Of a stretch of DNA of 47,601 bases, positions 27,093-47,601 are shown one piece after another. This DNA is from an uncultured Pelagibacteraceae bacterium (GTDB taxonomy: Bacteria; Pseudomonadota; Alphaproteobacteria; Pelagibacterales; Pelagibacteraceae), in NCBI GenBank assembly GCA_902597175.1, contig CACJWN010000009.1, positions 1 to 47,601 of the forward strand, in the 5' to 3' direction. The notes under the pieces were generated by a model. The model had not been told where the DNA came from, searched no databases, and saw only the letters and a program-made list of their open reading frames with translations. Every line of letters starts with the position of its first letter. The stretch's first letter is position 1. A program made the position numbers and the translations under genes.

Positions 27093-27536
27093 ATGAGGAA
27101 AATAAAAACAATATTATTTGTTTGTACTGGAAACTCTGCAAGAAGCATAATAGCGGAAAGTATTGTAAACAATAATTTCCGAAATCAATTCATCGCATTT
27201 AGTGCTGGAAGTAATCCTTCAGGGAAAATCAATCCCTACATTAAAGAGTATCTTGAAGGAAAAAAATTTAATTTAGCCACGTATTATTCGAAAAATTTTG
27301 ATGAATTTTTAAAAAATGATATTGATATTGATTACGTGATTACAGTTTGTAATAACGCCAATAAAGAAGTTTGTCCTGTATGGCCCAAAAAAAAGACCAT
27401 TACGCACTGGGACATCGCGGACCCTGTTGAAAAAATTAAAAAAACTAAAAATAAAGATAAAATAAATTTAATAGCTGAAGAAACTTATAATATAATTAAT
27501 GAAAAAATTAAACATTGGGTAAAAAATGAAAAGTAA
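27093..27536 (+). CDS. arsC: Arsenate reductase, low-molecular-weight phosphatase type
   Basis: 147 residues. The P-loop VCTGNSARSIIAES carries the nucleophilic cysteine in C-x5-R-S. A second cysteine pair (VCNNANKEVCPVWP, seven residues between) fits the redox cascade of alphaproteobacterial ArsC proteins, and WDIADPVE supplies the catalytic DP aspartate. It reduces arsenate to arsenite. The reading frame overlaps the aquaporin gene by 11 bases, indicating translational coupling. A plain tyrosine phosphatase is less likely because of the extra cysteines and the neighbour. No arsR is nearby. Confidence 0.85.
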   Translation: MRKIKTILFVCTGNSARSIIAESIVNNNFRNQFIAFSAGSNPSGKINPYIKEYLEGKKFNLATYYSKNFDEFLKNDIDIDYVITVCNNANKEVCPVWPKKKTITHWDIADPVEKIKKTKNKDKINLIAEETYNIINEKIKHWVKNEK

Positions 27537-28173
27537 AAAGATATTTATTGGTGAATTTATAGGAAGTTGTTTTTTAGTCATGATTATTGTTGGTTCAGGT
27601 ATTATGGCTCAAAATCTAACTGATGATATCGCTGTAATGTTAATAGCGAATACTTTAGCTACAGGCGCAGGATTATTTGTTCTGATTACTTCAATCGGTG
27701 ATATCTCCGGCGCACATTTCAATCCTGTCGTTACTTTAGCAATGTATTTTACCAACAAGATTAAAAAAAATTTAATTATCACTTATATCTCTGCTCAAAT
27801 CTTAGGTTGCATGTTAGGGGTAATGTTAGCAAATTTTATGTTTGATCTTCCTTTGTTGCAGCTTTCACAGAAGATTAGACCTGGAATAAATATTTTTACA
27901 GCTGAGATCATTGCAACTTTTGGATTAATTTTTGTGATATTTGGATCTTTAAAGAGCGGCAAACTTGCGGTCGCTTCATCAGTAGCTACTTTTATAACAG
28001 CGGGGTATTGGTTTACCTCTTCAACTTCTTTTGCAAATCCAGCGGTAGCAATCGCAAGAACTTTTACAGACACATTTACTGGAATTAATTACTTAAATAC
28101 TCCTAGCTATATCATTGCTGAGATGCTTGGTGGAATATTGGCTGTCTATTTAATCAGAAAAATTATTTTGTAA
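27526..28173 (+). CDS. MIP-family aquaglyceroporin (AqpS-like)
   Basis: 215 residues with six transmembrane helices and two half-helix motifs: GAHFNPVVTLAMYF (NPV in place of NPA) and FANPAVAIARTFTDTF (NPA followed by the arginine filter). Coupling to arsC matches the aqpS-arsC arrangement of Sinorhizobium meliloti, where the channel lets arsenite leave the cell after arsenate reduction. The substrate is inferred from that context; water or glycerol conduction is not excluded. Confidence 0.85.
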   Translation: MKSKKIFIGEFIGSCFLVMIIVGSGIMAQNLTDDIAVMLIANTLATGAGLFVLITSIGDISGAHFNPVVTLAMYFTNKIKKNLIITYISAQILGCMLGVMLANFMFDLPLLQLSQKIRPGINIFTAEIIATFGLIFVIFGSLKSGKLAVASSVATFITAGYWFTSSTSFANPAVAIARTFTDTFTGINYLNTPSYIIAEMLGGILAVYLIRKIIL

Positions 28174-28181
28174 TTGGAGGC

Positions 28182-28212
28182 CAGCCCAAGGAAATATTGA
28201 TACCTTGGGCTG
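28182..28212. terminator. Hairpin between aqpS-like gene and ppx
   Basis: CAGCCCAAGG (28182-28191) and CCTTGGGCTG (28203-28212) form a perfect ten-base stem with an 11-base loop, starting eight bases after the aquaporin stop codon. No T-run follows on either strand. A second, weaker hairpin (ACAGT 28234-28238 with ACTGT 28245-28249) follows. The position between convergent genes suggests transcript ending or 3' protection. Confidence 0.5.
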
Positions 28213-28313
28213 ATGGGCTAATTAATTAACAACACAGTTGGGAGACTGTTAATCAGTTAATAATATATAAATGCTTAAAAAATATTTAAATTAAGTTAAA
28301 GATTTATTAATTT

Positions 28314-29819
28314 TCAAGAATAAATGATATTGGAGTCGACATTCATCTCTCTTGCCAGGTTTTTAAGTCTTTTAGTTACTTGTTTTGAGACAATATCGCT
28401 ATGATTGTTAGGTATTTTCAAAAAAATAGTCTTATTTCTTTTATAAATTTTAAATTCATCTAACAACAAAGAAGACATGCTAGTGAGTGACTCTGCTAAT
28501 CTTAAAGCAGATCCCACTTGCTTTGAGGATAAAATTTCGTTGTTATTTAATAAGGATAAAAACTGATAATTCGGATTATATTTTAAGCCACAATGTCTCC
28601 AAAAACTTGCTGATGCAACTTTTACTCTATCTCTATGTTCTAGTTTTAGTAATGGAGTATTTAACACTTCCATAAAAACTAATTCTGCTTTTTGAAAAGC
28701 TCCTAGGCCCCAATCCATTTTACTTAAGATGCAAGCCAAGGTTAGTAATCTTCGATTAAAATATTCGTTGTCTTCAAATAATGGTGAAATAAAATTAAAA
28801 TATTTCTCAAAACTCTTTCCATAGTCCCCTTTTTTAAAAGATATACCGTCAGTTTTTAATTTGAAAATTTCATCCTCGCTCATTCCTTGGTTTATAATTG
28901 TATTCATATGTCCCTCTCTCAGTCCACTGATTGAGCAAATAACTTTTGAGGGGCTTGCTGCTTCAATTATTTTGTTTAGTATTATAGAGCTAAAAGGTAA
29001 ATAGGGAGTTCTAGATTTAGTAATATATTCCATTGATTTCAAAGATGATTTATTAAATTTTGAAATTCTATTTAAGTATTTTACTGCTACATCTTTTGAG
29101 AGTTTATATTGATGCAAAATATGTAATGGGTGTTTTTCTTTAAAGAGATGATATTTAAATAATGATCTCCAAGTCCCTCCTACCAAATAAATATTTTTAA
29201 ATTTCTTTTTAGAAAGCCATTTTTCATCTCTTAAAAGTTTTCTAACATATTTTCCCAAATTTCTTTTTTTTATAATAGGATTATTTTCAAGTCTTAATAC
29301 TCCAAGAGGTAAAGAGGTTGTTTCAAAAATTTGATTTTTAGAAACTCTGGCAAGTTCTAAACTTCCACCTCCTAAATCTGCAACTAATCCATCTACTTCA
29401 TCAAATCCTACCATTACACCATTTGCTGATGTTCTTGCTTCTTCCTCGCCAGATAATACTAGTGGTTTTTTATTAAATATTTTTTCAATTTCTCTTAAAA
29501 ATTCACTTGCATCAGTGGCCTCTCTAAAAGCTGCTGTTGCAATAATTTCTAAATCTTGAACGTCTGAAATATCTAAAATTTCTTTAAATCTATTTAGAAC
29601 TTTTAAAGAACCTTTAATTCCATCGGGATTTAGTTTTTTAGATTTATCTAAATTTTTTCCAAGTTTGCAAACTGCTTTTTCATTAAAGACTGGGATTGGA
29701 GAAATTTTAAAATTATCGTATATGAGCATTCTTACTGAATTTGATCCAAGATCTATTATGGCTTGCTTAGACTTTTTATTAGACTGAAATTTAAAAAGAT
29801 TTTTTAATTCTGGTTTCAT
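28314..29819 (-). CDS. ppx: Exopolyphosphatase (Ppx/GppA family)
   Basis: 501 residues. The actin-like ATPase fold is marked by AIIDLGSNSVRMLIYD near the N-terminus, SGEEEARTSANGV and LVADLGGGSLELARV, followed by a C-terminal all-helical region. It removes terminal phosphate from polyphosphate; the family can also cleave pppGpp. It overlaps ppk by four bases (ATGA), so synthesis and breakdown of polyphosphate are encoded as one unit. Confidence 0.92.
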   Translation of the reverse strand: MKPELKNLFKFQSNKKSKQAIIDLGSNSVRMLIYDNFKISPIPVFNEKAVCKLGKNLDKSKKLNPDGIKGSLKVLNRFKEILDISDVQDLEIIATAAFREATDASEFLREIEKIFNKKPLVLSGEEEARTSANGVMVGFDEVDGLVADLGGGSLELARVSKNQIFETTSLPLGVLRLENNPIIKKRNLGKYVRKLLRDEKWLSKKKFKNIYLVGGTWRSLFKYHLFKEKHPLHILHQYKLSKDVAVKYLNRISKFNKSSLKSMEYITKSRTPYLPFSSIILNKIIEAASPSKVICSISGLREGHMNTIINQGMSEDEIFKLKTDGISFKKGDYGKSFEKYFNFISPLFEDNEYFNRRLLTLACILSKMDWGLGAFQKAELVFMEVLNTPLLKLEHRDRVKVASASFWRHCGLKYNPNYQFLSLLNNNEILSSKQVGSALRLAESLTSMSSLLLDEFKIYKRNKTIFLKIPNNHSDIVSKQVTKRLKNLAREMNVDSNIIYS

Positions 29820-31942
29820 TTTACTAATCTTAAATTTTGAGGTTTAGCTCTTAAAATTGACTTACCACGACCTGATAAACTTGGGTTCTTCATGAAATAG
29901 GAATGTGCGGAAAAGCCTTTTTCTTGTTCTTTATGATAGTTTCCCAAACTATCTAAATACCATGTTTCTGATTTATCTTTAAAGTTAGCTAACATAATTT
30001 GATCTAAAATTTGCTCATGCACAGTATTGTTTTCTATCGGAATTATAATTTCAATTCTTCTATCTAAATTTCTAGGCATTAAATCTGCAGATGAAATATA
30101 TACCTGATTCTCTCGAGAGGGCATAGAACTACCATTTGCAAAACAATAAATTCTTGAGTGTTCTAAAAATCTGCCAATAAGGCTTTTTACTTTTATATTT
30201 TCAGATTGACCTTTAATTCCAGGTCTTAAGCAACACACTCCTCTTACTGATAAATTTATTTTTACTCCTGCGTTTGAAGCTTCATAAAATTTCTTAATAA
30301 TTCCAGGGTCTACAAGAGAATTCATTTTTGCCCATATTTCTGCAGGTTTTCCTTTACTTGCATTTACAATTTCATTTTCAATTTTTTCTTCAAAAAAATT
30401 CCTGCTATTTAATGGAGACATAAAAATTTTATTCAATTTTTTTGGTTTTGCATAACCAGTTACATAATTGAAAAATTTTTCGACATCTTTGGCCAAGTCT
30501 TGATTAGAGCTAAACAGTGATAAGTCAGTATAAATTTTTGCGTTAATTGGATGATAGTTTCCTGTACCTAAGTGAACATAGCTTCGCGTTTTAGCTCCCT
30601 CTTTTCTTAAAACTAAACTTGCCTTTGCATGCGTTTTATATTTTGCGAATCCGTAAACAATTTGAACGCCAGCTTTCTCTAGTTTCCTAGATAATTCAAT
30701 ATTAGCTTCCTCATCAAATCGAGCTTTTATTTCTATTACGGCTGTAACAACTTTTCCGTTTTCTGCTGCTCTACTTAGTGCTTTTACGATAGGAGAGTCA
30801 GGTGTGGTTCGATACAAAGTTTGTTTGATACCGATAACTTTGGGATCTTTTGCTGCAGCTTCTAAAAATTGAATTACTACATCAAAAGTTTCAAAAGGGT
30901 GGTGTACAACAAAATCTTTACTTCTTATAGCTGAAAAAAATTTATCATCAAATTCCTTCAATCTTTCAACTTCTCTAGGATTAAACTTTTTAAATCTCAG
31001 CTTTGGATCTTTCTTTTTACAAATTTCATCTATATCTTGTATTCCAACCAATCCTTCAACCTCATAAATATGATCTTCATCCATTTTAAATTTTTTTGAA
31101 ATAAAATTTAAAAGTTTTTTGTTTGAATTAGTGATTACTTCGAGTTTAACTACGTTTCCCCTTCTTCTTTTCTTAATTGCTTTTTCAAAATATCTCACAA
31201 GATCAGCAGCTTCATCATCTATTTCAATTTCGCTGTCTCTAATTATTTTAAACTGCAAACTTGCCTCGATATTATGGTCTGGAAATATTTCATTAGCAAA
31301 TTTACAAATTACGTCATCAATTGTGACAAATTCATTTATTGTTTCAGAATTGTTTAGAGATACAAATTTTGGAAGTGCTCTTGGTATAACTATAATTGCA
31401 TTTAGTTCTCTTTTTTTTTTTATTCTAGTCATTCTTAGTAAAATTGCTTGGCCTTTATTTGGTATAAAAGGAAAGGGATGTGATGGGTCAATGGCAGTAG
31501 GTGTTATTATAGGATAAATTGTTTCCTGAAAATATTCTCTTAGATACATAAGATCCTTCTTATTTAGTTCTGACATTTTTCGAATGAAAATTTTTTCTTT
31601 CGATAGCTCTTTTTTCAACTCTAGGAATGCTTCGTTTTGCTTCTTTAATAGATCTTTAGTTTTTAATACGACCCTATTCAATTGATCCTCTGCAGTTAAT
31701 CCATCTGCGCTTAATTCGTCAAAACCATCTTTAATTTGATTAAAAAGTCCAGCGACTCTTACCATAAAAAATTCATCTAAATTTGTACCTGCGATTGATA
31801 AAAATTTTACTCTTTCAAATAGAGGATTTGTTTTATCTTTTGATTCTTCTAAAACACGATCATTAAACTGAAGCCAAGATAATTCTCTGTTTATGAGTTG
31901 ATTGCTAATATTAGCGTTTTCTGAAAATGATGCTTTCGACAT
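29816..31942 (-). CDS. ppk: Polyphosphate kinase 1
   Basis: 708 residues, normal PPK1 length. The N-terminus INRELSWLQFNDRVLEE, the segment DPKVIGIKQTLYRT, the catalytic region RSYVHLGTGNYHPINAKIYTDLSLF and the C-terminal SSADLMPRNLDRRIEI are all family hallmarks; the autophosphorylated histidine lies in the catalytic half. It builds polyphosphate from ATP. The ATG lies 22 bases from the divergent sixA start, so promoters must overlap coding sequence. No Pho box is visible there. Confidence 0.96.
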   Translation of the reverse strand: MSKASFSENANISNQLINRELSWLQFNDRVLEESKDKTNPLFERVKFLSIAGTNLDEFFMVRVAGLFNQIKDGFDELSADGLTAEDQLNRVVLKTKDLLKKQNEAFLELKKELSKEKIFIRKMSELNKKDLMYLREYFQETIYPIITPTAIDPSHPFPFIPNKGQAILLRMTRIKKKRELNAIIVIPRALPKFVSLNNSETINEFVTIDDVICKFANEIFPDHNIEASLQFKIIRDSEIEIDDEAADLVRYFEKAIKKRRRGNVVKLEVITNSNKKLLNFISKKFKMDEDHIYEVEGLVGIQDIDEICKKKDPKLRFKKFNPREVERLKEFDDKFFSAIRSKDFVVHHPFETFDVVIQFLEAAAKDPKVIGIKQTLYRTTPDSPIVKALSRAAENGKVVTAVIEIKARFDEEANIELSRKLEKAGVQIVYGFAKYKTHAKASLVLRKEGAKTRSYVHLGTGNYHPINAKIYTDLSLFSSNQDLAKDVEKFFNYVTGYAKPKKLNKIFMSPLNSRNFFEEKIENEIVNASKGKPAEIWAKMNSLVDPGIIKKFYEASNAGVKINLSVRGVCCLRPGIKGQSENIKVKSLIGRFLEHSRIYCFANGSSMPSRENQVYISSADLMPRNLDRRIEIIIPIENNTVHEQILDQIMLANFKDKSETWYLDSLGNYHKEQEKGFSAHSYFMKNPSLSGRGKSILRAKPQNLRLVK

Positions 31943-31964
31943 ATTTAAATGTTAAATTAAAAAT

Positions 31965-32489
31965 ATGTTTAAATTATATGCGATGAGACATGCTAAATCT
32001 AGTTGGGATTTTCCAGATTTAGATGATCATGACAGGCCATTGAATAAAAGAGGGGAAAATTCAGCAAAATTAATTTGTGAATTTTTTATTAAAAAGAAGT
32101 TAAAATTTGATTTAGTTTATTGCTCATCCTCAAAAAGGACAATACAAACATTAAATATATTGTCAGAAAAAATCAGTTTTAAGAAAATTATTAAAAAAAA
32201 AGCGCTTTATCATGCTAGTGAGGATGAAATTATTCATATCTTAAAACAAACAGTTGATAATTATAAAACTTTACTTTTAATCAATCATGAACCTTCAATT
32301 AGTGAACTCATAAATCGAATCTGTCTTAAAGAAAACTCCGAACAATTTGAAAATTTAAAAAGAAAATTTCCTACTGCAGCCGTTGCTGAAGTAAGTTTTA
32401 ATTTCAATGATTGGGAAAAGTTATCAAAAGTTAAAGGAAAATTAATATCATTTATAAAGCCAAAAGATCTTCAAACATCTAAGGAATAG
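31965..32489 (+). CDS. SixA-type histidine phosphatase
   Basis: 174 residues of the histidine phosphatase (phosphoglycerate mutase-like) superfamily: RHAKSSWDFPDLDDHDRPLNKRG near the N-terminus carries the RH nucleophile, and LLINHEPSISELI carries the second catalytic histidine. E. coli SixA dephosphorylates phosphohistidine in phosphorelay or PTS proteins. The position between ppk and phoB hints at a role in phosphate signalling or polyphosphate metabolism, but no substrate can be read from sequence. Its 3' end overlaps phoB by 19 bases. Confidence 0.82.
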   Translation: MFKLYAMRHAKSSWDFPDLDDHDRPLNKRGENSAKLICEFFIKKKLKFDLVYCSSSKRTIQTLNILSEKISFKKIIKKKALYHASEDEIIHILKQTVDNYKTLLLINHEPSISELINRICLKENSEQFENLKRKFPTAAVAEVSFNFNDWEKLSKVKGKLISFIKPKDLQTSKE

Positions 32490-33154
32490 CCAGCAGATCT
32501 TACTGTTCTGATAAGATCTTTCTTGCCATCAATATTTATTGCTTTTCTTAGTCTTCTTATATGAACATCTATAGTTCTGGACTCAACATAAATATCATCT
32601 CCCCATACAGAATTTAGAAGTTGCTCACGCGAATATACTCTTTTTGGATTCTTTATTAAAAAATCAATTAGTTTAAATTCGGTTGGGCCGACTATAACTT
32701 GTTTATCTGCTCTATAAACTCTTCGTTGAACTCTATCTACTTTAAGATCCTCAAATACTACAACATCAGCGGCAACACTTGGTTTAGATCTCTTTAATAA
32801 AGCGTTAACTCTTGCAATAAGTTCTTTTTGGCTGAATGGCTTAGTTACGTAGTCATCAGCTCCTGTTTCAAATCCTTTAAGTTTGTCTTCTTCCTCACCT
32901 TTGGCTGTTAACATAATGATTGGGATATTTTTGTGAAGATTGCTTCTTTTCAAATTTTTACAGACTTCAACACCTGAAATATCTGGCAACATCCAATCTA
33001 ATAAAATTAAATCAGGATTTTTTTCCTTTATATTTCTAATAGCGTCTTCTCCATTGACTGCATAATCAACTTTGTGACCCTCTTTTTCTAAATTGTATTT
33101 AAGTAAAGTTACGATGGGTATTTCATCTTCAACAATGAATAAATTTGCCCTCAT
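32471..33154 (-). CDS. phoB: Phosphate regulon response regulator PhoB
   Basis: 227 residues: an N-terminal receiver domain with phospho-acceptor Asp53 in LILLDWMLPDISG, the conserved lysine in DDYVTKPFSQKEL, and a C-terminal winged-helix DNA-binding domain (EFKLIDFLIKNPKRVYSREQLLNSVWG, then RTIDVHIRRLRKAI). It binds Pho boxes when phosphorylated by PhoR. It is the last gene of the pst run and shares one base with phoU. Confidence 0.94.
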   Translation of the reverse strand: MRANLFIVEDEIPIVTLLKYNLEKEGHKVDYAVNGEDAIRNIKEKNPDLILLDWMLPDISGVEVCKNLKRSNLHKNIPIIMLTAKGEEEDKLKGFETGADDYVTKPFSQKELIARVNALLKRSKPSVAADVVVFEDLKVDRVQRRVYRADKQVIVGPTEFKLIDFLIKNPKRVYSREQLLNSVWGDDIYVESRTIDVHIRRLRKAINIDGKKDLIRTVRSAGYSLDV

Positions 33155-33834
33155 TATCCTTTTGGTCGGTCTCCCTCTAAATAATCTCCTGTAATCAGAA
33201 AATAAACTTGCTCTGCAATATTGGTTGCATGATCTCCAATCCTCTCAATATTTTTAAGCATGAAAAGTAGTTGGGTTACTTTTTGTATATCGTTTTTATT
33301 TTTTTCTAAATGCTTTACTGCAGCTTCCATATTAGAATTAGTCATTTGATCTATTTCTTCATCAGAATTCCAAACATTTTCTGCTGTATCTTTAGCTCTA
33401 TGTAAATACGAATTTAAAACTGCATTGACTTGTTTTGATGCTTTTAAACCAGCTATTTCGAAATTTTTAGTAATATCATTAGGTAAATCAGTTCCAATTT
33501 TAGTTAATCGTTTTGAGATGTTTTTTGCTAAATCACCAATTCTCTCTAAGTCTGAAGAAACTTTTAAGGCAACAACTGTTTCTCTTAAATCTATTGCCAT
33601 AGGTTGCCTTAAGGCAATCAAATTTACAACTTGCTCTTCTATATTTATTTCATACTTATCAGTCAATTCGTCATCTTTGATAGATTTTTCTGCTAAACTA
33701 ATGTCTTTTTTAACTAAAGATTGAATAGTGTTTTCAAGCTGTTTCTCAACTCCAGTTCCCATTTTCACTATTGTATCTTTTAATAACTGAAGTTGCTCTT
33801 CGTAAGATTTTACAATGTGCGGTTTTTCACTCAT
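33154..33834 (-). CDS. phoU: Phosphate signalling protein PhoU
   Basis: 226 residues, all-helical, with two PhoU repeats; the segments VALKVSSDLERIGDLAKNISK and LLFMLKNIERIGDHATNIAEQV are the two copies of the E-R-I-G-D metal-binding motif. PhoU links the Pst transporter to PhoR and lowers phosphate uptake and signalling when phosphate is sufficient. It shares single bases with pstB and phoB on either side. Confidence 0.95.
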   Translation of the reverse strand: MSEKPHIVKSYEEQLQLLKDTIVKMGTGVEKQLENTIQSLVKKDISLAEKSIKDDELTDKYEINIEEQVVNLIALRQPMAIDLRETVVALKVSSDLERIGDLAKNISKRLTKIGTDLPNDITKNFEIAGLKASKQVNAVLNSYLHRAKDTAENVWNSDEEIDQMTNSNMEAAVKHLEKNKNDIQKVTQLLFMLKNIERIGDHATNIAEQVYFLITGDYLEGDRPKG

Positions 33835-34589
33835 TAACCAAACCTTCCTGTAATATAATCCTGAGTTTGCTGATTATCAGGATTTTTAAATATTTTATCT
33901 GTTGGTCCAAATTCTATAAGTTTTCCCAAATGAAAGAAACCTGTTTTTTGAGATACCCTAGCTGCTTGTGACATTGAGTGGGTAACTATCACAATTGTGA
34001 CCTCTTTTTTAAGATCATCTATAAGTTCTTCAATTTGAGCTGTTGCTATTGGGTCAAGCGCTGAACATGGTTCGTCCATAAGAATCACTTCTGGACTTAC
34101 AGATATAGCTCTAGCAATACATAGTCGTTGCTGTTGACCTCCTGATAAGCCAGTTCCGATTTCATCAAGTCTATCTTTAACTTCGTTCCACAAGGCAGCT
34201 TTTTTCAAACTTGTTTCAACTATTTGATCCATTTCTTCTTTGCTCTGTGCAATACCGTGAATAGTAGGACCATAAGCTACATTTTCATAAATTGTTTTAG
34301 GGAATGGATTGGGTTTTTGAAAAACCATACCAACGTTCTCCCTAAGTCTCACAACATCTAACTTTCTAGAATTCAGTTCTAGGTTGTCCATTTTAATACT
34401 GCCTTCAACTTTACAAATTTCTATGACGTCGTTCATCCTGTTCAAGCATCTTAAGAAAGTAGACTTTCCACACCCAGATGGTCCAATTAAAGCTGTAACT
34501 TCTTTTTCTGCTATATCTATAGAGACGTCAAATAATGCCTGTTTGGATCCGTAATAAACATTTACATTTTCCGCTTTTATTTTACTCAT
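33834..34589 (-). CDS. pstB: Phosphate ABC transporter ATP-binding protein
   Basis: 251 residues. Walker A is [14 protein letters not shown], the signature [14 protein letters not shown], and Walker [14 protein letters not shown], with the H-loop in VIVTHSM. The [26 protein letters not shown]-loop region is typical of PstB rather than other ABC ATPases. It powers phosphate import with PstC and PstA. It abuts pstA without a gap and shares one base with phoU. Confidence 0.97.
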
Positions 34590-39076: not shown

Positions 39077-40273
39077 CTAAAATTTAGAAAAGTGAACCTT
39101 TATTTCGGTGCCCCTTTGAGTCTCACTTTTTATTTCTAACTCACCTCTATGCTGATTAACAATGTGCTTCACGATCGCCATTCCAAGTCCAGTGCCACCA
39201 ACTTTTTTACTTTTAGCTGCATCAACTCTAAAGAATCTTTCTGTAATTCTCGGAAGTTGTTCAGTTGGAATTCCAATACCATTATCTTTAATGGACACGG
39301 TATAAGAGTCTCCTATTACTTTTCCGTTACCTTGCCCACAATTAACTTCGATCTTTTTATTTTTTTCTGAATATTTTATACTGTTATCAATAATATTTGA
39401 AAAAACTTCAATTAATTTTTCATGATCGCCTTTAATAAAGAAATCATCTTTTATATTATTTTTAAATTCAAAAGATTTTAAATTTTTTTGATGGATGTCT
39501 TCAACGTTACTTAAAATTTCTTTTAAATTTACTTTATCTTGAGGCTGTATATGTTCCTCTAACTCAATTCTACTTAATGAAAGTAAATCTTTAATTAAGC
39601 TTTCCATCCTATCAGCTTGCTCAAGCATTATCGGTATGAATTTTTTTTGTGCTTCTAAATCATCTTTCGCATGTCCGCTTATAGTTTCTAGAAATCCTTT
39701 AATAGAAACTAAAGGCGTTTTAAGTTCATGGCTTACATTGGCTACAAAATCAGATTTGAACCTTTGCGCTTTTATAATATCAGTTAAATCTTTTAGAAAT
39801 AAAACAACTGAGTCAGGATCATCGACATATGAGGTCGGTCCAGAGAATAGATGAACTTTAAAGAACTGAAATGAGGGAGAGGATAATTCTAAATCCATAG
39901 TAATTGTCTCTTTTTTTAAAAGCACTAAATCAATATTTTGGAGTAAATCAGGAACTCTCAATAAAGTAGCCACGTGCTTATTTAAATTATTTTCTCCAAA
40001 TTTTTTTTTTGCACTACTATTAAAAAATTTGATATTTTTAAATTTATCTACAATTAAAATTAGATCATCGATTTGATTTATAATCTTTACTTGCTCATTA
40101 GTTTTTTCAATATTTTCATTGGTGATGTCTTCTATTCCCTCTTCATTATTACTTGGTTTGTTCTCTCTCTTAATATCGGATCTTGCCTCCATACCTGCTA
40201 CAATTGATTTTCTGGATACTGCAATTACTACGATCACAATTATTCCAGCAAGAGAGTAAAATAATAATTCCAT
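39077..40273 (-). CDS. phoR: Phosphate regulon sensor histidine kinase PhoR
   Basis: 398 residues. One N-terminal transmembrane helix (about 4-20) is followed by a PAS-like region, a dimerisation domain with phospho-acceptor His182 in VANVSHELKTPLVSIKG, and an ATPase domain with DNGIGIP and GGTGLGMAIVKHIV. There is no large periplasmic sensor, as expected for PhoR, which reads Pst/PhoU. It phosphorylates PhoB. A TATAAT lies six bases before the ATG, suggesting a leaderless transcript. It is separated from phoB by the pst genes. Confidence 0.92.
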   Translation of the reverse strand: MELLFYSLAGIIVIVVIAVSRKSIVAGMEARSDIKRENKPSNNEEGIEDITNENIEKTNEQVKIINQIDDLILIVDKFKNIKFFNSSAKKKFGENNLNKHVATLLRVPDLLQNIDLVLLKKETITMDLELSSPSFQFFKVHLFSGPTSYVDDPDSVVLFLKDLTDIIKAQRFKSDFVANVSHELKTPLVSIKGFLETISGHAKDDLEAQKKFIPIMLEQADRMESLIKDLLSLSRIELEEHIQPQDKVNLKEILSNVEDIHQKNLKSFEFKNNIKDDFFIKGDHEKLIEVFSNIIDNSIKYSEKNKKIEVNCGQGNGKVIGDSYTVSIKDNGIGIPTEQLPRITERFFRVDAAKSKKVGGTGLGMAIVKHIVNQHRGELEIKSETQRGTEIKVHFSKF

Positions 40274-40315: not shown

Positions 40316-41323
40316 TTAGCGGTTTGATACCGCACTATTTAAAAAGATTTTTGCGCAATTTTCCCAGGTATATTTTTTTGCATGCTCAATGCAAGCGCTT
40401 CTATCTGACTTAAGAGCTTCAAGTGCTGCTTTTTTAAGATCGTTGTTTAACGAGCCAATATTTGTGCCGTTAAAAATATCTTTTGGTCCAGCAACAGGGT
40501 ACGCTGCTACTGGCAATCCACATTTTAAAGCTTCTATAATTACAATTCCAAAAGTATCTGTTTTGCTCGGGAAAACAAAAACATCAGAAGAAGCAAAGTA
40601 ACTTGCAAGCTCACCATTTGTTCTCTCTCCTTTAAATATCGCTTCAGGATATTCTTTTTTTAGTTTATCTAAATCAGGTCCTTTACCGACAACTAATTTC
40701 GTACCTTCTAAATCTAAATCCAGAAATGCTCTTATATTCTTTTCAATAGATACTCTTCCCACATAAAGATAAATTGGTCTTTTATACTCTAAATTAATCT
40801 TTTTAGGCTTTTGAAATGCCCCGTGGTTTGCTCCTCTAGTCCAAACAACCATCTTATCCTTTTCAAAACCAATTTCTTGAAGTTCATTTTTCATCGACTG
40901 AGTTGTTACTAAAATTTTTTCCGCCTTTGAGTGAAATCCTTTAAGGAACTTTTGAGCAAGCTTAATTGGCAAATAAGGATAGTATAGCTTCAAATATTTA
41001 TCAAATTGAGTATGGTAAGACGTGGTAAACTTAAGCTTACTTTTTACACAATATCTTTTTGCAAATATTCCTATCGGACCTTCTGTAGCTATGTGAATTA
41101 TGTCAGCATCAGCTTTAGAAATTAATCTGCCTACTCTAGGCCAAACATTAATAGAAAGTTTTATTTCATTATATTTTGGCATTGGCACAGTAAAAAATTG
41201 ATTAGGTTCAATATATTCAACCTGATGTCCAATTTTTTTTAATTCATCGCCAAGATTTTTTAAAGTTCTACAAACACCGTTCACTTGCGGATACCAGGCA
41301 TCAGTAACGATTAAAATCTTCAT
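40316..41323 (-). CDS. agt: GT4 glycosyltransferase, probable diacylglycerol glucosyltransferase (Agt)
   Basis: 335 residues with the GT-B fold of family GT4: N-terminal ILIVTDAWYPQVNGVCRTL, linker TRGANHGAF, then PIYLYVGRVSIEKNIRAFL and the C-terminal EX7E-type region DVFVFPSKTDTFGIVIIEALKCGLPVAAYP. Relatives make mono-glycosyl-diacylglycerol. It follows the PlcP-type gene without a gap, matching the plcP-agt pair described in marine bacteria that replace phospholipids with glycolipids under phosphate starvation. Sugar specificity cannot be read from sequence. Confidence 0.82.
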   Translation of the reverse strand: MKILIVTDAWYPQVNGVCRTLKNLGDELKKIGHQVEYIEPNQFFTVPMPKYNEIKLSINVWPRVGRLISKADADIIHIATEGPIGIFAKRYCVKSKLKFTTSYHTQFDKYLKLYYPYLPIKLAQKFLKGFHSKAEKILVTTQSMKNELQEIGFEKDKMVVWTRGANHGAFQKPKKINLEYKRPIYLYVGRVSIEKNIRAFLDLDLEGTKLVVGKGPDLDKLKKEYPEAIFKGERTNGELASYFASSDVFVFPSKTDTFGIVIIEALKCGLPVAAYPVAGPKDIFNGTNIGSLNNDLKKAALEALKSDRSACIEHAKKYTWENCAKIFLNSAVSNR

Positions 41324-42139
41324 TTATTTATTTACTACTTTTAGATACGGCTCGTAATCAACAACATCACCTCTGATTTTGTCCCAGTCAATAACTTCCA
41401 TGCGACCATCAAAATGTTCTACTAAGAAAGTTGCACCTTCTACCCAATCACCACAATTTAAATATCTCACACCATCTAAGACTTGATCGGCAGAATGATG
41501 AATATGGCCGCAAATTATGCCATCAACATTTTTTCTTTTAGCATAAATTGCTAAAGTTTTTTCATAATCACCTATATATTTTACAGCGTTCTTTACTTTG
41601 TGTTTTAAATATTTTGCTAAAGACCAATTACCCTTTTTAAATAATCTTCTAAAAACATTGATAACAACATTAAACTCAAGTAAAAAACTATAAGCGACAG
41701 CTCCTACTTTTGATAACCATGGAGCATATTTCATGACTCCATCCCAGGCATCACCATGAACAACAATATACTTTTTATTATCTGAGCTTACATGTATGGC
41801 TTTATTTACAACTTCAATATCGCCAAAATGTAATGGTAAAAATTTTCTGAAGACATCATCATGATTTCCAACAATATATTTTACTTTTGTTCCATGTCTT
41901 GCTTTTCTTAATGTTTTTTGAATCACATCATTATGTTCTTGAGGCCAGTAAAATTTTGTTTTTAAAGCCCAAACATCAATGATATCACCAACAAGGTATA
42001 AATTCTCTGACCTTGAATGTTTGTAAAATTCTAATAATTTGTTCGCTGCACTTTTTCTATGCCCAAGGTGCAAGTCGGAAATAAAGATGCTTTTGTAATT
42101 TAAAATCTTTCCCTTAGATTTAGTTTGAATTGTTTCCAT
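41324..42139 (-). CDS. plcP: PlcP-type phospholipase C (metallophosphoesterase)
   Basis: 271 residues from the ATG at 42139 (METIQTKSKG); an ATG at 42178 would add a hydrophobic stretch that runs toward the Pho box. All metallophosphatase motifs are present: FISDLHLGH, VGDIIDVW, VGNHDDVF, VHGDAWDG and ICGHIHHS. The family includes LpxH-like enzymes and PlcP, which cuts phosphatidylcholine and phosphatidylglycerol to diacylglycerol. PlcP is preferred because of the adjacent glycosyltransferase, the pst/pho context and the Pho box; an LpxH role in lipid A synthesis is the alternative. Confidence 0.82.
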   Translation of the reverse strand: METIQTKSKGKILNYKSIFISDLHLGHRKSAANKLLEFYKHSRSENLYLVGDIIDVWALKTKFYWPQEHNDVIQKTLRKARHGTKVKYIVGNHDDVFRKFLPLHFGDIEVVNKAIHVSSDNKKYIVVHGDAWDGVMKYAPWLSKVGAVAYSFLLEFNVVINVFRRLFKKGNWSLAKYLKHKVKNAVKYIGDYEKTLAIYAKRKNVDGIICGHIHHSADQVLDGVRYLNCGDWVEGATFLVEHFDGRMEVIDWDKIRGDVVDYEPYLKVVNK

Positions 42140-42184
42140 ATTTTTTATAAAACGAATCTCTAGTAAAAGTAGAATCATAAATAT

Positions 42185-42202
42185 GTTACAGAATTGTTAA
42201 AA
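42185..42202 (-). promoter_or_regulatory. Pho-box-like site between plcP and the kinase gene
   Basis: On the minus strand TTTTAAC-AATT-CTGTAAC has the same 7-4-7 direct-repeat layout as the pstS site. It is oriented toward plcP, 46 bases before its start codon, and ends one base before the divergent kinase ATG at 42204. Confidence 0.6.
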
Positions 42203-42203: not shown

Positions 42204-43100
42204 ATGAATAAAAAATTGAATTTTGCGGTGATATTTAACGCAAATGCAGCAGGTGGTAGAAAACTTAAATTAATTAACAAGGTCATTAATCTTTTAGAAA
42301 AAAATCATATTGTAGATCTTTTTAAAACTGAAAGCGAAGATCATGCAAGGAATGTATTTAAAGAATTGTCTAATAAAAAATTTGATCGGTTAGTATTTGC
42401 TGGCGGTGACGGGAGCGTATGTTTTGGTATTAATGAAATGTTTAAAAGTGATAATCTAAAAGACAAATTAGTTGGATACATACCTGCTGGCACTGCAAAT
42501 ATTTTACAAATAGAAACTCAAATTAAGAAAAAGGCGGAGGAGATTTACAACGTCCTAGTATCAGATAATCATAAGAAAATTTCATTAGCAAAAATAAATG
42601 ATAAGTACTTTTTCTTGATGGCTGGTGTAGGTTTTGACTCTCGAATTGTTGAGTCCATAAATACTAATATTAAAAAGTATCTTGGAAAAGTAATTTTCGC
42701 TTTAAAAGGTTTTCAGCATTTTTTATTTTTAAAAAATAATAAAATGGAGGTTGAGGTAGATAATGAAAAAATTATGGCTGATTGGATTTTATGTACTAAT
42801 TCAAAATACTATGCTGGTCCCCATTCTATAACAAATGATACCAATATATTTGAAAACAGGATAGTAGCTTACATATTTAAAGACCTGACCAGAATAAAAT
42901 TACTTTATTATGTTTGGTTAATTTTAACCAAAGGCGACTTAACTCCTGCAAAAAGTGTAATTAAAAAAGAATTGAACAGATTAAAAATAAATGGTGTAAA
43001 CAATAAAGTTCTATCACAGGTTGATGGTGAAAATTGTGGTTACGTAAACAGTCTTGAGATCCAAAAAACAGACAGATTTATAAATTTATTAGTTCCGTAG
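42204..43100 (+). CDS. Diacylglycerol kinase family lipid kinase
   Basis: 298 residues. The N-terminus AVIFNANAAGGRKLKLINKV, the GGDGS loop in VFAGGDGSVCFGINE, and VGYIPAGTANIL followed by LMAGVGFDSRIVE are the hallmarks of the DAGK/YegS/LCB5 family, which phosphorylates diacylglycerol, sphingoid bases or related lipids. It is divergent from plcP-agt with a 64-base gap and no visible ribosome binding site. It could return diacylglycerol released by PlcP to phosphatidic acid when phosphate returns; substrate and role are inferred from context. Confidence 0.85.
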   Translation: MNKKLNFAVIFNANAAGGRKLKLINKVINLLEKNHIVDLFKTESEDHARNVFKELSNKKFDRLVFAGGDGSVCFGINEMFKSDNLKDKLVGYIPAGTANILQIETQIKKKAEEIYNVLVSDNHKKISLAKINDKYFFLMAGVGFDSRIVESINTNIKKYLGKVIFALKGFQHFLFLKNNKMEVEVDNEKIMADWILCTNSKYYAGPHSITNDTNIFENRIVAYIFKDLTRIKLLYYVWLILTKGDLTPAKSVIKKELNRLKINGVNNKVLSQVDGENCGYVNSLEIQKTDRFINLLVP

Positions 43101-43196: not shown

Positions 43197-43202
43197 AACA
43201 AT

Positions 43203-43400: not shown

Positions 43401-43419
43401 TTTATAAATAAATTAAATG

Positions 43420-43442: not shown

Positions 43443-43483
43443 TTTATTTGCACGACGATAAATATATTTTCAAGTTTTCAAGC

Positions 43484-44416
43484 TTAAAACCAAGAGATAT
43501 TTTTGGATTTACAAATTTCTTGAACTTTTTTTGGATAGTCAGTGATAATTCCATCAACTCCGTACTCGATCATTCTAATAATATCTTTTTCTCTATTCAC
43601 TGTCCAAACACAAGTAGCTAAACCATGTTTGTGTGCTAATTCTACATTTTGTTTAGTCACATCACGGTAGAAAACACTCCATACATGTCCCTCTAGCGAT
43701 TTAATAATATTTGGTAGCAAAAATAATTCTTCCATAGGATAATTTTTAACCATCCATGGAGAGTTCTCGTAAATATTCTTTTTAGTTATTGAAAGTCCTT
43801 GTTGTAGAGTAATAAATCCTCTTAGGATATTTGGGTTTTGTTTTTTAAGAGCATACAAAATTCTAAAATCATAAGAAGTGATTAAAGTTCTATCCTCAAG
43901 ATTATAGTCTTTTATATCTTTAAGAATTAAAGAAACCATTTTCTCTGGATCTGGTGTTACGTTTTCTTGTGTTGGAGTTGATTTAATTTCTAAATTTAAA
44001 AATACATCTTTATATTTATCTTCCGTCACTAATTTAAAGAAATCAGTTAATTTTGGTATTTTTTCACCTGTAATAGGTTTTTGATTTTTAAATCTTTTTG
44101 CGTACTTTGTTTCGGGCTTTATACTTCCAATACTATACTTACTTATTTCATCATAATTCAGTTCTACTAATTTCATGCTTTTATCTGTGATCCAGTTCCC
44201 TGAGGCATCTTTAACTAAATCAGGATTTAATCTGTAATCATGAAATATTGTTGGAATATTATCTTTTGAAATTACAACATCGAACTCAACAGCTTTGATA
44301 CCAAGATCAAAAGTATATTTAAAACCGGAGATTGAGTTTTCAACAATATCACCTCTAGCTCCCCTGTGGCCGTAAATTCTTATGTAGTTAGGTTTCGTTA
44401 AAAATGGATTGATCAA
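43484..44416 (-). CDS. Glycerophosphodiester phosphodiesterase (UgpQ/GlpQ family)
   Basis: 310 residues, no signal peptide, so probably cytoplasmic like UgpQ. The GDPD catalytic start is RIYGHRGARGDIVENSISGF, then AVEFDVVISKDNIPTIFHDY with the metal-binding E-x-D and catalytic HD. C-terminal GVDGIITDYPKKV is typical. It releases glycerol-3-phosphate from glycerophosphodiesters such as glycerophosphocholine. It overlaps ugpC by four bases, so it is translated with the importer of its substrates. Confidence 0.92.
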   Translation of the reverse strand: MINPFLTKPNYIRIYGHRGARGDIVENSISGFKYTFDLGIKAVEFDVVISKDNIPTIFHDYRLNPDLVKDASGNWITDKSMKLVELNYDEISKYSIGSIKPETKYAKRFKNQKPITGEKIPKLTDFFKLVTEDKYKDVFLNLEIKSTPTQENVTPDPEKMVSLILKDIKDYNLEDRTLITSYDFRILYALKKQNPNILRGFITLQQGLSITKKNIYENSPWMVKNYPMEELFLLPNIIKSLEGHVWSVFYRDVTKQNVELAHKHGLATCVWTVNREKDIIRMIEYGVDGIITDYPKKVQEICKSKNISWF

Positions 44417-45468
44417 TTAATCCTCAAATCAGTATTAGTATCAAACAGGTGTAGTTTGTCATTTTGAATGGAAAGATTAATATTTTTTCCAATAGTATCT
44501 TCTTTAACAACACCTGAGATACTTGCAACTAAAATTTCATTACTATTTTCAAGTTTACCATGAATAAGTGTATTAGCTCCGATCAGCTCTACGAGTTCAA
44601 CTTTTAACTTGATTGGACCATTTTGATCTAATTCAAAATCTTCAGGTCGCATACCTATATTAACAGGTCCATTAAATTTTGAATTCACTGAAAGTGAAGC
44701 TTTGTTTGCTAAAATCAATTTGTTGCCTCCACAATTACCTTTTAAAATATTCATTGCAGGACTTCCAATAAATTGAGCCGTGAATAAAGTTTTAGGTTTC
44801 GTATAGACTTCTAAAGGTGTTCCAATATGTTCTACATTACCTTCATTCATTACAATCATTCGATCAGCTAAAGTCATCGCTTCAACTTGATCATGTGTTA
44901 CATAAAGAGAAGTAGTTTTTAATTGAGTTTGAAGTTTTTTAATCTCTAATCTCATTTGAACCCTCAATTTGGCATCAAGGTTTGATAAGGGTTCATCAAA
45001 TAAAAAAGCCACGGGGTTTCTAACAATGGCTCTTCCCATAGCAACTCTTTGTCTTTGTCCACCAGATAATTGATTGGGTTTTCTCTCTAATAATTCTCCA
45101 AGCTCTAAAATTTCAGCAGCTTTTTGAACTCTAGACTCAATTTCTTCTTTTGGCACTTTCGCAATTTTTAAACCATAGGCCATGTTACCAAAAACAGTCA
45201 TGTGAGGATAAAGAGCGTAATTTTGAAATACCATTGCAATATTTCGCTCCATGGGTTCAAGCTCGTTTACTTTTTTATTATCAATTAAAATATTTCCTTC
45301 ATTAGCATCTTCTAAGCCTGCCACCATTCTTAATAAAGTTGATTTTCCGCAACCTGATGGTCCAACTATTACAATCAGCTCACCATCTTTAACATCAATA
45401 CTCAGATCGTGAATAACCTGAGTTTTTCCGAAAGATTTCTTTAAATTTTGTAAACTAATTTGAGACAT
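44413..45468 (-). CDS. ugpC: sn-glycerol-3-phosphate ABC transporter ATP-binding protein
   Basis: 351 residues, the MalK/UgpC type with an N-terminal ATPase and a C-terminal TOBE domain. Walker A is [14 protein letters not shown], the signature LSGGQRQRVAMGRA, Walker B FLFDEPLSNLD. The C-terminal domain begins at FIGSPAMN and contains VNIGMRPEDFEL. Its place in a ugpB-A-E-C run ending in a phosphodiesterase supports the Ugp assignment over a sugar transporter. It shares one base with ugpE. Confidence 0.92.
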   Translation of the reverse strand: MSQISLQNLKKSFGKTQVIHDLSIDVKDGELIVIVGPSGCGKSTLLRMVAGLEDANEGNILIDNKKVNELEPMERNIAMVFQNYALYPHMTVFGNMAYGLKIAKVPKEEIESRVQKAAEILELGELLERKPNQLSGGQRQRVAMGRAIVRNPVAFLFDEPLSNLDAKLRVQMRLEIKKLQTQLKTTSLYVTHDQVEAMTLADRMIVMNEGNVEHIGTPLEVYTKPKTLFTAQFIGSPAMNILKGNCGGNKLILANKASLSVNSKFNGPVNIGMRPEDFELDQNGPIKLKVELVELIGANTLIHGKLENSNEILVASISGVVKEDTIGKNINLSIQNDKLHLFDTNTDLRIN

Positions 45469-46322
45469 TATTTATCGCTTTCTAATAATCCTTTAACAAA
45501 AAACTTTTGCATACTAATTACTACTATGACTGGAGGAACCATAGCTAACATCGCAGTTGCCATAACCGTTGGCCAGTGTGCATAGTCATCGCCCGTAGGT
45601 ATCATTGAGTCAATAGCCATCACAATAGTTCTCATGTCAGGATCAGTCGTCATTAATAGCGGCCATAAATATTGATTCCAACCAAAAATAAATAAAATAA
45701 CAAATAAAGCTGCAATATTAGTTTTACTAATTGGAACTAATATATCAAAAAAGAAACGCATTGGACTACAGCCGTCCATTCTAGCTGCTTCAACCATTTC
45801 ATCAGGTATGGTCATAAAAAATTGTCTAAATAAAAAAGTTGCTGTGGCTGATGCAATTAATGGGAAGATTAATCCTGTGTAAGAGTTAAGTAGATTTAAA
45901 TTTGCAACAACTTCATAAGTTGGCACTATTCTTACTTCTACTGGTAGCATTAGAGTAATAAAAATTAACCAAAAACATAAATTCCTGAAAGGAAATCTGA
46001 AATAAACAAATGCAAAAGCTGATAATAATGAGATAATAATTTTTCCAACTGTGATGCCGATTGCCATGATTGCTGAGTTCATCATCATTTTTATAACAGG
46101 CACTTTTGCACCATACCCTTCTGGTGAGCCTCTAAATAATGCATTAGCATAATTTTCAAAGAACTCTGTTCCTGGTAACATTGGTAATGGAGGATAAATA
46201 ATTGCATCTTGAGTAACAGTGGATGCAACGAAAGTAAGCCACACCGGAAAAAATATGAATAATACCCCAAGAATTAAACCAAGGTGAGTTAACCAATAAC
46301 CTGATTTCTTTTTTTCAACCAT
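45468..46322 (-). CDS. ugpE: sn-glycerol-3-phosphate ABC transporter permease UgpE
   Basis: 284 residues, six transmembrane helices, carbohydrate-type permease of the MalG group. The coupling motif appears as EMVEAARMDGCSPMRFFFDILVP. The segment LMTTDPDMRTIVMAIDSMIP is close to UgpE proteins. It overlaps both neighbours by one base. With UgpA it forms the channel for glycerol-3-phosphate or glycerophosphodiesters. Confidence 0.92.
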   Translation of the reverse strand: MVEKKKSGYWLTHLGLILGVLFIFFPVWLTFVASTVTQDAIIYPPLPMLPGTEFFENYANALFRGSPEGYGAKVPVIKMMMNSAIMAIGITVGKIIISLLSAFAFVYFRFPFRNLCFWLIFITLMLPVEVRIVPTYEVVANLNLLNSYTGLIFPLIASATATFLFRQFFMTIPDEMVEAARMDGCSPMRFFFDILVPISKTNIAALFVILFIFGWNQYLWPLLMTTDPDMRTIVMAIDSMIPTGDDYAHWPTVMATAMLAMVPPVIVVISMQKFFVKGLLESDK

Positions 46323-47203
46323 TAGTAATGAACCTTTCTCTCTATATATTTAAATTGAATGACGGTTAAAATTCCGACTAAAACTAGTAGGATTACAGAC
46401 TGAGCGGCACTTGATCCAAGATCTTGGCTCACAAACCCATCAGAGAATACTTTATATACTAGTATAGTAGTCGATTGTTCAGGTCCGCCTGAAGTTATTG
46501 TATGAATTACTCCAAAAGTATCAAAAAAAGCATAAACAATATTTACTACTAATAAAAAGAATGTGATGGGTGAAAGTAGAGGTATTACAATCGTTCCAAA
46601 CCTTTTCCAAAAACTAGCACCATCTATTGCAGCCGCCTCAATAATGGATTTTGGAATAGCTTGTAGTCCTGCTAAAAAAAATAAAAAGTTATAACTTATT
46701 CTTCCCCATGACGAAGCTAAAATAACTAGAAACATTGCTTGATCACCTTTTAAAGTATGATTCCATTCATAACCTAAAGCTTTAAGATAATAAGAAGCTA
46801 ACCCAATGTTTCCATTGAACATAAATAACCATAGAACACCTGCGATAGCTGGTGCTATAGCGTAAGGCCAAATTAATAATGTTTGATAAACTCCTGCACC
46901 TTTAATTAATCGATCGGCTAATGCTGCTAAGTATAAACCTAAAGCCATTGATGAAACTGATACTGCAGTTGAAAAAATTACTGTCGTTTTAAAACTTGCT
47001 AAATAATAAGGGTCGGACAATAAAAATCTAAAATTATCTAAACCTACAAATTCTGTCTTTAGACCAAAAGGATCTGGTAGAAATAAAGAATTCCAAATCG
47101 CTTGGCCGGAAGGATAAAAAAAGAAAACAAAAGAAATGAGTAGCTGAGGTGCAACTAGCAGCGCTGGTAACCACCAGCCTTTAAAAAAAACTCTTTTTTC
47201 CAT
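46322..47203 (-). CDS. ugpA: sn-glycerol-3-phosphate ABC transporter permease UgpA
   Basis: 293 residues, six transmembrane helices, permease of the MalF group. The N-terminal LPALLVAPQLLISFVFFFYPSGQAIWNSL, and the coupling motif SIIEAAAIDGASFWKRFGTIVIPLL, are typical of UgpA; VIHTITSGGPEQSTTILVYKVF follows. A hairpin lies in the 52-base gap to ugpB upstream, probably limiting its expression relative to the binding protein. Confidence 0.93.
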   Translation of the reverse strand: MEKRVFFKGWWLPALLVAPQLLISFVFFFYPSGQAIWNSLFLPDPFGLKTEFVGLDNFRFLLSDPYYLASFKTTVIFSTAVSVSSMALGLYLAALADRLIKGAGVYQTLLIWPYAIAPAIAGVLWLFMFNGNIGLASYYLKALGYEWNHTLKGDQAMFLVILASSWGRISYNFLFFLAGLQAIPKSIIEAAAIDGASFWKRFGTIVIPLLSPITFFLLVVNIVYAFFDTFGVIHTITSGGPEQSTTILVYKVFSDGFVSQDLGSSAAQSVILLVLVGILTVIQFKYIERKVHY

Positions 47204-47216
47204 TTGATCTTTAGAA

Positions 47217-47244
47217 GTATACCAGGGGCTTTCGCCCCTGATAC
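47217..47244 (-). terminator. Hairpin between ugpB and ugpA
   Basis: CAGGGGC and GCCCCTG form a perfect seven-base stem closed by a GAAA tetraloop (minus strand), extended by GTAT/ATAC after a two-base bulge. There is no T-run, so it looks like a 3'-end stabiliser for ugpB mRNA more than a full terminator. Confidence 0.65.
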
Positions 47245-47255
47245 GTTAAATTGAT

Positions 47256-47600
47256 TTATTTGTTTGCTCTCTCAAATCTTCTTAAAAGAACGTTACCTCT
47301 TCTAACAGCATTGTCTAAAGCTACTTGAGCAGTTTTGCTGCCGTTGTAAACTCCTTCCATCTCTTCATCGATAATACCTCTTATCTGATCAAAAGATCCA
47401 AGACGTAACCCTTTTGAGTTTTGAGTAACTTTATTTCTCATCATCTGTATTCCAGCTAAATCAGTTCCAGGATTTGCTTTATAAAAACCTGAACTTTTAG
47501 TTTTTTTAGCTGCAGCAGTTGTAACACCTAAGTAACCAGTATCTTGGTGCCACTTAGCTTGAATATCAGTTTTAGATAAGAAAGCTAAGAACGCAGCTGT
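47256..47600 (-). CDS. ugpB: Glycerol-3-phosphate-binding protein UgpB, N-terminus beyond the window
   Basis: Only the last 114 codons are visible; the frame is open to the right edge. The visible part reads FLAFLSKTDIQAKWHQDTGYLG, then GFYKANPGTDLAGIQMMRNKV, NSKGLRLGSFDQIRGIIDEEME and a C-terminal NVLLRRFERANK, closely like the end of UgpB proteins. It would bind glycerol-3-phosphate or glycerophosphocholine in the periplasm. The gene continues outside the window, as does any Pho box before it. Confidence 0.9.
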   Translation of the reverse strand, partial: TAAFLAFLSKTDIQAKWHQDTGYLGVTTAAAKKTKSSGFYKANPGTDLAGIQMMRNKVTQNSKGLRLGSFDQIRGIIDEEMEGVYNGSKTAQVALDNAVRRGNVLLRRFERANK

Positions 47601-47601
47601 T

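Follow-up and report, generated by a model that had tools for sequence, protein, structure and literature searches.

A probable replaceable island of phosphate genes in one chromosomal slot of SAR11-like bacteria

The stretch of DNA considered here, called the window, comprises all 47,601 bases of contig CACJWN010000009.1 (G000:C9) from an uncultured Pelagibacteraceae bacterium whose genome spans 988,276 bases on 19 contigs and is 86% complete. The block of phosphorus, arsenic and lipid genes at positions 27093–47601 very probably represents one form of a replaceable island of phosphate genes that occupies a fixed slot in a SAR11-like genus and is exchanged from species to species. Its main component is a 16-kilobase (kb) cassette running from arsC to dagK. 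The cassette appears to have spread recently by recombination, since its four-fold-degenerate sites are far less different than those of the neighbouring genes. SAR11 cells rank among the most abundant in the ocean, and the block probably lets such a bacterium live on very little phosphate.

Gene families were assigned by scanning the translations of open reading frames (ORFs) against Pfam, using curated cut-offs, and against NCBIfam. Genomes of the collection, each a separate species, are given G numbers and the loci fetched from genomes are given L numbers. The 19 other genomes of the genus that have PhoU were all retrieved, as were nine of the 15 PhoU-positive genomes labelled f2. The window was then compared with each relative gene by gene for difference at four-fold-degenerate sites, with the rest of the genome represented only by the backbone genes of the window itself.

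A near-identical cassette was present in 14 of the 19 other same-genus PhoU genomes. The four-fold difference from arsC to dagK was 0.4% in G010, 0.8% in G008, 1.9% in G036, 2.3% in G034, 3.4% in G023, 3.5% in G006, 4.7% in G020, 5.3% in G021, 6.7% in G018, 9.6% in G009, 12.8% in G015, 12.9% in G030, 13.2% in G035 and 15.1% in G014, where G023, G018 and G009 span only part of the cassette. Old versions were found in G031 (44%), G007 (51%) and G024 (58%). For the 14 near-identical species, 144 comparisons of core cassette genes gave a median difference of 2.4% (0–22%) against a median of 55% (15–74%) for 161 comparisons of backbone genes, to which G018 contributed none and G010, G020 and G035 three genes each. 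The three from G010 differed by only 20–33%. Low backbone values adjoin the slot (gcrA, abc2), which would be expected if the tracts overran the cassette, and the left edge is marked by a DUF6552 gene that differs by 8–20% where the adjacent gcrA differs by 42–72% (G034, G020, G021, G014, G015, G009, G035).

The same pattern is seen in 14 named loci (L091–L104), in which the segment from ppx to phoR differs by 0.2–10.7% at four-fold sites. The named loci are mostly AG- and SAG-MED records, which are taken to be single-cell genomes. In L101 (10.7%) and L102 (8.3%), the proteins encoded by gcrA, arsC, aqp, agt, plcP and dagK are 61–70% identical to those of the window, so near-identity is limited to ppx–phoR and exchange also has borders within the cassette. 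IleS, encoded on the L101 contig as well, has 69% identity and a 64% four-fold difference, and the 16S gene of the L101 genome is 96% identical to that of G006.

The slot has the same borders in same-genus genomes with and without the cassette, gcrA–DUF6552 on the left and SMR–epimerase–rnd on the right, the right-hand backbone segment being SMR–epimerase–rnd–kdsD. Within the window, which ends before the right border, the only transfer RNA gene is at 14348–14424 and no transposase was found among the scanned ORFs. Counting the window, the genus has 20 genomes with PhoU, and each of them contains a Pst cassette. The large version is present in 17 of the 19 others, several of them broken by contig ends. 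A small version, phoB-phoU-pstBACS-phoR, with a PhoU of 42–43% identity, is carried by G002 and G016, and G024 has both versions on separate short contigs.

Among the 17 same-genus genomes lacking PhoU, gcrA was found in nine, and in all nine a permease sits in the gcrA–SMR slot (ORFs were read in seven and matches placed in all nine). No DUF6552 was found in the G005 slot, and the G017 stretch stopped after SMR. The permease is a membrane protein of about 322–326 residues; eight of nine aligned members (three from f2) match Pfam PHO4 weakly, with a best value of 2.6e-7, and its repeats resemble PiT signatures. Neither a single sequence nor a profile of the permease matched the solved structures. 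Across 61 genomes, PhoU was found in 35, the permease in 13, neither in 13 and both in none (Fisher p = 1.6e-6, uncorrected for kinship). The balance of these data leans towards a slot that holds a Pst cassette or a PiT-like permease, never both in the genomes examined, with one allele having recently swept at least 14 other species, and its 11-kb core having entered a lineage of 96% 16S identity, by flank-guided homologous replacement.

Several further features of the slot were observed. A 75–78-residue ORF lies beside the permease (L187:7046-7282, minus strand; same place in L186, L188, L189, L190, L193 and L194), and the one copy compared shares 43% identity with the N-terminal part of the window PhoR. 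It may be a remnant of a Pst cassette that was lost, or else a small protein in its own right. In L188, between DUF6552 and gcrA (10667–13753), an extra set of zinc-uptake-like genes was recognized by eye from translations: a ZnuA-like protein with a His-rich stretch, an ABC ATPase, a permease and a Fur-like regulator. An ABC gene (25% match) occupies the same place in G009, G014, G015 and G021. In the permease-type slots L186, L188 and L193, an aquaporin adjoins DUF6552, with no match to arsC. Among the f2 genomes, G039 has a PhoB homologue and a PiT-like gene on one 5.9-kb contig (L236), and no PhoU match in the genome. The PiT-like genes of G038 and G042 adjoin a TMEM164-like gene whose counterpart in G037 is located between pstS and phoR, which is no more than suggestive of an f2 slot.

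The last genes of the block, gdpd-ugpCEAB, form a separate module with its own history in the same slot. It was seen in seven of the nine permease genomes and in five of the 19 with PhoU, some of the latter being truncated ahead of it. In G010, G036, G034 and G002 its proteins are 93–100% identical to those of the window, with four-fold differences of 15–38% for ugp and 0–24% for gdpd; in G024 the protein identity is 60–81%. By four-fold sites and distribution, therefore, the module cannot be kept in the single unit in which the earlier note on this DNA had placed it.

To determine how common the linkage is, genome contigs were scanned with PstC. This identified 577 relatives, of which the best 80 loci were analyzed, a sample biased to pst carriers and to these top matches, consisting mostly of AG- records titled Pelagibacteraceae, some prefixed 'MAG:'. 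The order DUF6552-arsC-aqp-ppx-ppk-sixA-phoB-phoU-pstBACS-hyp203-phoR-agt-plcP-dagK recurs among them. The full set is present in 45 of the 80 loci, many of the others being cut; arsC and aqp are present in 54, and agt, plcP and dagK in 62, every locus with 5 kb to spare past phoR having this trio. The gene order is not due to chance, since it is found again in many other genomes. Of the nine fetched f2 genomes, eight have aqp-arsC next to phoB-phoU-pst and six have ppx beyond phoR. The arrangement differs from that of the window, but these functions are linked there too, so their linkage is old.

Transfer of the cassette between orders was considered for L109–L168, which share the order with a PstC mostly 72–74% identical, and was rejected: IleS identity parallels the cassette (66–70% in the six of eight genomes of this type where it was found, versus 52–53% in four f2 genomes), so that ordinary descent suffices. 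In viral contigs, PstS was found in six loci at 47–49% identity, none of them close relatives. Two extra genes between phoR and agt were detected by tblastn in L099, L128 and L152, and a gap of 1.7–1.8 kb occurs at this place in G018, G030, G031, G035 and G024. The G030 insert encodes Pfam Acetyltransf_5 and Acyltransf_2 proteins, a pair that is presumably olsBA-like and perhaps serves ornithine lipids.

A direct repeat of 7-4-7 design (CTGTAAY, 11-base period) is conserved before pstS. A Pho-box matrix was trained on ten distinct pstS sites, from L105 onward, and on no other upstream regions. The site before pstS has the top score in the window, 21.2 bits, as compared to a maximum of 17.0 bits and a mean of 0.35 sites of at least 14 bits in 40 simulated order-1 Markov sequences of window length. 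The plcP site (14.9 bits) is within the simulated range and so rests on its position and recurrence. With a threshold of 11.5 bits and about 160 upstream bases considered, a site precedes pstS in 77 of 77 loci, which is partly circular as the matrix was learnt from pstS sites, plcP in 35 of 62 and dagK, which shares the gap with plcP, in 16 of 62. None was counted upstream of hyp203 in 74 loci. The canonical CTGTCAT-N4-CTGTCAT was also tried and discarded; its one match, versus 4.25 expected by chance, is outside the block. Phosphate control of the uptake and lipid units is supported by these predicted sites.

A number of observations weigh against an exchangeable, phosphate-controlled package in its simplest form. 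The hisG–hisZ genes, which are away from the slot, differ by only 20–24% in G034 and G021, so exchange is not confined to the slot. The arsenic part of the cassette is optional, since 12 of the 80 PstC loci lack arsC and aqp despite more than 2.3 kb of room. A Pho-box-like site was found upstream of ppk in none of 72 loci, upstream of arsC in one of 54, and near ugpB in none of G010, G036, G034, G002 and G024; phosphate control of the arsenic, polyphosphate and ugp units is unproven. Eight of the 37 same-genus genomes have neither PhoU nor the permease; six of these are 57–75% complete, but G011 and G028 are 85–86% complete. The L187 permease matches PHO4 at only 0.28–0.33, and its score and the genome matches are below the cut-off. 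Lastly, in the GCA002718135 family Pit accompanies pst in 55 of 67 pst-bearing genomes (PMC10734472), so mutual exclusion is not general.

The best surviving alternative, although an improbable one, is that of the earlier note, in which an unusual and stable 20-kb island is the mark of a low-phosphate ecotype and responds as a single regulon. The gene content fits, and phosphorus, arsenate and lipid genes do form an island as described, with the frequencies of arsC and plcP tied to low phosphate (PMC6426599, PMC4796936). The linkage, however, is common among the PstC loci examined, the history of gdpd-ugp differs, and versions swap within one genus. Since the cassette crosses species and alternates with a permease, what it marks is less a lineage than a swappable allele, and the ecotype reading is only partly supported. 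A single regulon for all units does not emerge from the sites: Pho-box-like repeats precede pstS and plcP, but none was found before ppk or ugpB and almost none before arsC.

It is very improbable that the near-identity is an artefact in which one abundant cassette contaminated several single-cell genomes or was joined to them as chimeras during amplification. Single-cell amplification can create chimeras, and AG- records, with some marked 'MAG:', make up most of the named loci. However, the cassette lies within long contigs (to 376 kb) beside diverged genes in many genomes and plates, its borders fall at homologous places and the copies differ by 0.4–15%. Vertical inheritance under purifying selection so strong that the proteins were unable to change is hardly credible: most cassette proteins are indeed 95–100% identical in the 14 species and their order is conserved, but silent four-fold sites are near-identical in the cassette and close to saturated through most of the backbone. 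At such sites groEL differs by 34–56% with 95–99% protein identity, and ugpE by 29–38% in four genomes with 100% protein identity. In G007, G031 and G024 (44–58%), L105–L108 and L110, moreover, these cassette genes do show silent divergence.

The cassette may be considered a high-affinity phosphate-scavenging package, of which the lipid kinase is also a part. During phosphate shortage, PhoR and PhoB, with PhoU, would raise the production of PstSCAB and of PlcP-Agt. PlcP would take off the phosphate head group to leave diacylglycerol, which Agt would glycosylate so that glycolipids replace phospholipids (PMC4796936, PMC8231724). Ppk and Ppx would buffer phosphate by storing and releasing polyphosphate. 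Arsenate entering with phosphate would be reduced by ArsC and let out through the aquaporin, as PMC6426599 proposes. The gdpd-ugpCEAB module would serve glycerophosphodiesters. Whole cassettes or parts of them would be swapped between species by homologous recombination, presumably under selection by low phosphate, such that cells of the genus hold this cassette, the smaller Pst-PhoBR one or a PiT-like permease. These proposed steps draw on protein families and published systems.

If phosphate adaptation is a mobile cassette, then arsC, plcP and pstS as markers would report local selection and not lineage, and species trees can be a misleading basis for models of ecotypes. With near-identical copies set against diverged flanks, this is also a clean natural setting in which to measure sweeps across species. 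The arrangement suggests why genes for arsenate detoxification, polyphosphate and lipids travel with high-affinity uptake.

The features of the block are collected in Table 1. The near-unbroken run described by the earlier note is confirmed, in that the named genes are intact ORFs with Pfam matches above the curated cut-offs, apart from a fragment of ugpB and one gene without a family. The strands are mixed, with arsC-aqp, sixA and dagK on the plus strand and the remaining genes on the minus strand. Two names are given as candidates, as arsC matches NCBIfam arsC_pI258_fam at 2.7e-18, yet below that family's cut-off, and the sixA-like protein matches NCBIfam sixA at 2.3e-15, also below the cut-off. 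Because the contig ends there, ugpB is partial, with only its last 114 codons present and a score of 21.3 versus the SBP_bac_8 cut-off of 27. Pfam cannot separate ugp from other sugar-type ABC transporters, so that the ugp name rests on the adjoining GDPD. At this locus the neighbours of arsC are DUF6552 and the aquaporin, and no arsR or arsenite pump (arsB/ACR3) was found beside it. Between dagK and gdpd there is a lysine-rich 65-residue ORF (43203–43400, plus strand) with no Pfam match; a similar stretch, recognized by eye from an ORF on the opposite strand, follows dagK in G006 and G030.

Table 1. Positions of genes and predicted sites in and beside the phosphate block of the window.
Feature	Position	Strand	Evidence or remark
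gcrA, left anchor of slot	26311..26805	+	Pfam GcrA; adjoins slot in Pst- and permease-type relatives
DUF6552 small protein	26833..27066	+	Pfam DUF6552; in several relatives, left limit of the near-identical segment
arsC, LMWP-type arsenate reductase candidate	27093..27536	+	Pfam LMWPc
Aquaporin (aqpS-like), candidate arsenite exit	27526..28173	+	Pfam MIP
ppx, exopolyphosphatase	28314..29819	-	Pfam Ppx-GppA
ppk, polyphosphate kinase	29816..31942	-	Four PP_kinase domains
sixA-like histidine phosphatase	31965..32489	+	Pfam His_Phos_1
phoB response regulator	32471..33154	-	Pfam
phoU	33154..33834	-	Pfam
pstB	33834..34589	-	Pfam
pstA	34590..35885	-	Pfam
pstC	35854..37230	-	Pfam
pstS	37290..38294	-	Pfam
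Pho-box-like direct repeat upstream of pstS	38363..38380	-	Matrix score 21.2 bits
hyp203, 203-residue protein between pstS and phoR	38402..39013	-	No family match
phoR sensor kinase	39077..40273	-	Pfam, NCBIfam
agt-type glycosyltransferase	40316..41323	-	Pfam Glyco_transf_4/Glycos_transf_1
plcP-type metallophosphoesterase	41324..42178	-	Pfam Metallophos
Pho-box-like direct repeat upstream of plcP	42185..42202	-	Matrix score 14.9 bits
dagK, YegS/diacylglycerol-kinase-like lipid kinase	42204..43100	+	Pfam DAGK_cat; right end of recently exchanged cassette
gdpd, glycerophosphodiester phosphodiesterase, separate module	43484..44416	-	Pfam GDPD
ugpC-like ABC ATPase	44413..45468	-	Pfam
ugpE-like permease	45468..46322	-	Pfam
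ugpA-like permease	46322..47203	-	Pfam
ugpB-like binding protein, C-terminal part only	47256..47600	-	ORF call; contig end

For the hyp203 protein there was no match in NCBIfam, nor in Pfam at 0.001. An alignment of 13 sequences has two invariant Cys and, by eye, an N-terminal hydrophobic stretch; the protein is probably secreted. A search with its predicted structure (mean pLDDT = 84) identified no convincing fold relative by Foldseek (best E = 0.007, TM 0.18) or VIA-align, where the best Z of 6.4 over 108 residues, to sex-pheromone precursors, is in the tool's "common" range. Against PDB sequences there were two matches only (E about 0.9).

The host genus was placed from same-genus genomes, as an rRNA (ribosomal RNA) scan of the window genome itself found none. 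In G006 and G020, 16S adjoins 23S with no 5S within 1.5 kb, and in the f2 genome G038 the 5S adjoins 23S. The G006 16S gene is 91–92% identical to those of two named SAR11 single-cell genomes and 84% identical to that of G038. According to PMC7318151, rRNA genes are split in bona fide Pelagibacterales and not in subclades IV and V. Since 5S is away from 23S and given the 16S identities, the genus is assigned as SAR11-like on rRNA evidence, in agreement with the SAR11-type host assumed by the earlier note. A HIMB59 host, suggested by 16S–23S adjacency, was ruled out by the same identities and by the absent 5S, G006 and G020 both lacking the 16S-23S-5S operon of that type.

The closest published counterpart is the HIMB59 phosphate island (fGIp, PMC10734472). 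It too has a fixed chromosomal place and several versions of differing content, with pstSCAB-phoU, phoBR, ppk, ppx, sixA, a diacylglycerol kinase, a glycosyltransferase named 'RfaG' and a phosphoesterase named 'LpxH'. Its 'Wzb' tyrosine phosphatase is read here as an arsC homologue and its 'GlpF' as the aquaporin. Island identity is above genome identity there as well, with the exception of version C, which is the most like this block, and homologous recombination is proposed. Unlike fGIp, the present block is in a SAR11-like host, is without alkaline phosphatase and has optional gdpd-ugp and acyltransferase genes. The PiT-like permease is an alternative occupant of the slot here, whereas in the HIMB59 family Pit is inserted in the island in two genomes; a permease version without pst departs from the fGIp kind.

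Other systems resemble parts of the block. A flexible SAR11 island contains pstSCAB-phoU and phoBR (PMC7318151), and its description, as available, does not mention ars, ppk, lipid genes or near-identity in multiple species. The LMWPc_ArsC-aquaporin pair of SAR11 1a.3 (PMC6426599), whose frequency is inverse to phosphate, consists of the same two neighbours on one strand; as described, it is not placed in a phosphate island. In SAR11 HTCC7211, which is reported to have ArsC and Pst as well, agt is downstream of plcP as it is here and putative Pho boxes are reported in plcP clusters (PMC4796936, PMC8231724), with no linkage to pst, ppk or ars mentioned in these accounts. The Pst/PiT alternative resembles a survey in which pst-phoBR occurs in 55% of offshore Pelagibacteraceae genomes and the others appear reliant solely on pitA (PMC12636525); a shared slot is not mentioned in the portion available. 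In the literature consulted, no statement was found of Pst and PiT sharing one SAR11 slot, nor of cassette near-identity across SAR11 species. Recombination is high in SAR11 (PMC7542561), and a sweep of the nar operon has been described within one SAR11 species (PMC12374537), whereas the sweep proposed here crosses species. Thus, islands of this kind have been published for HIMB59 and partly for SAR11, and the present genomes provide clearer evidence of their exchange across species.

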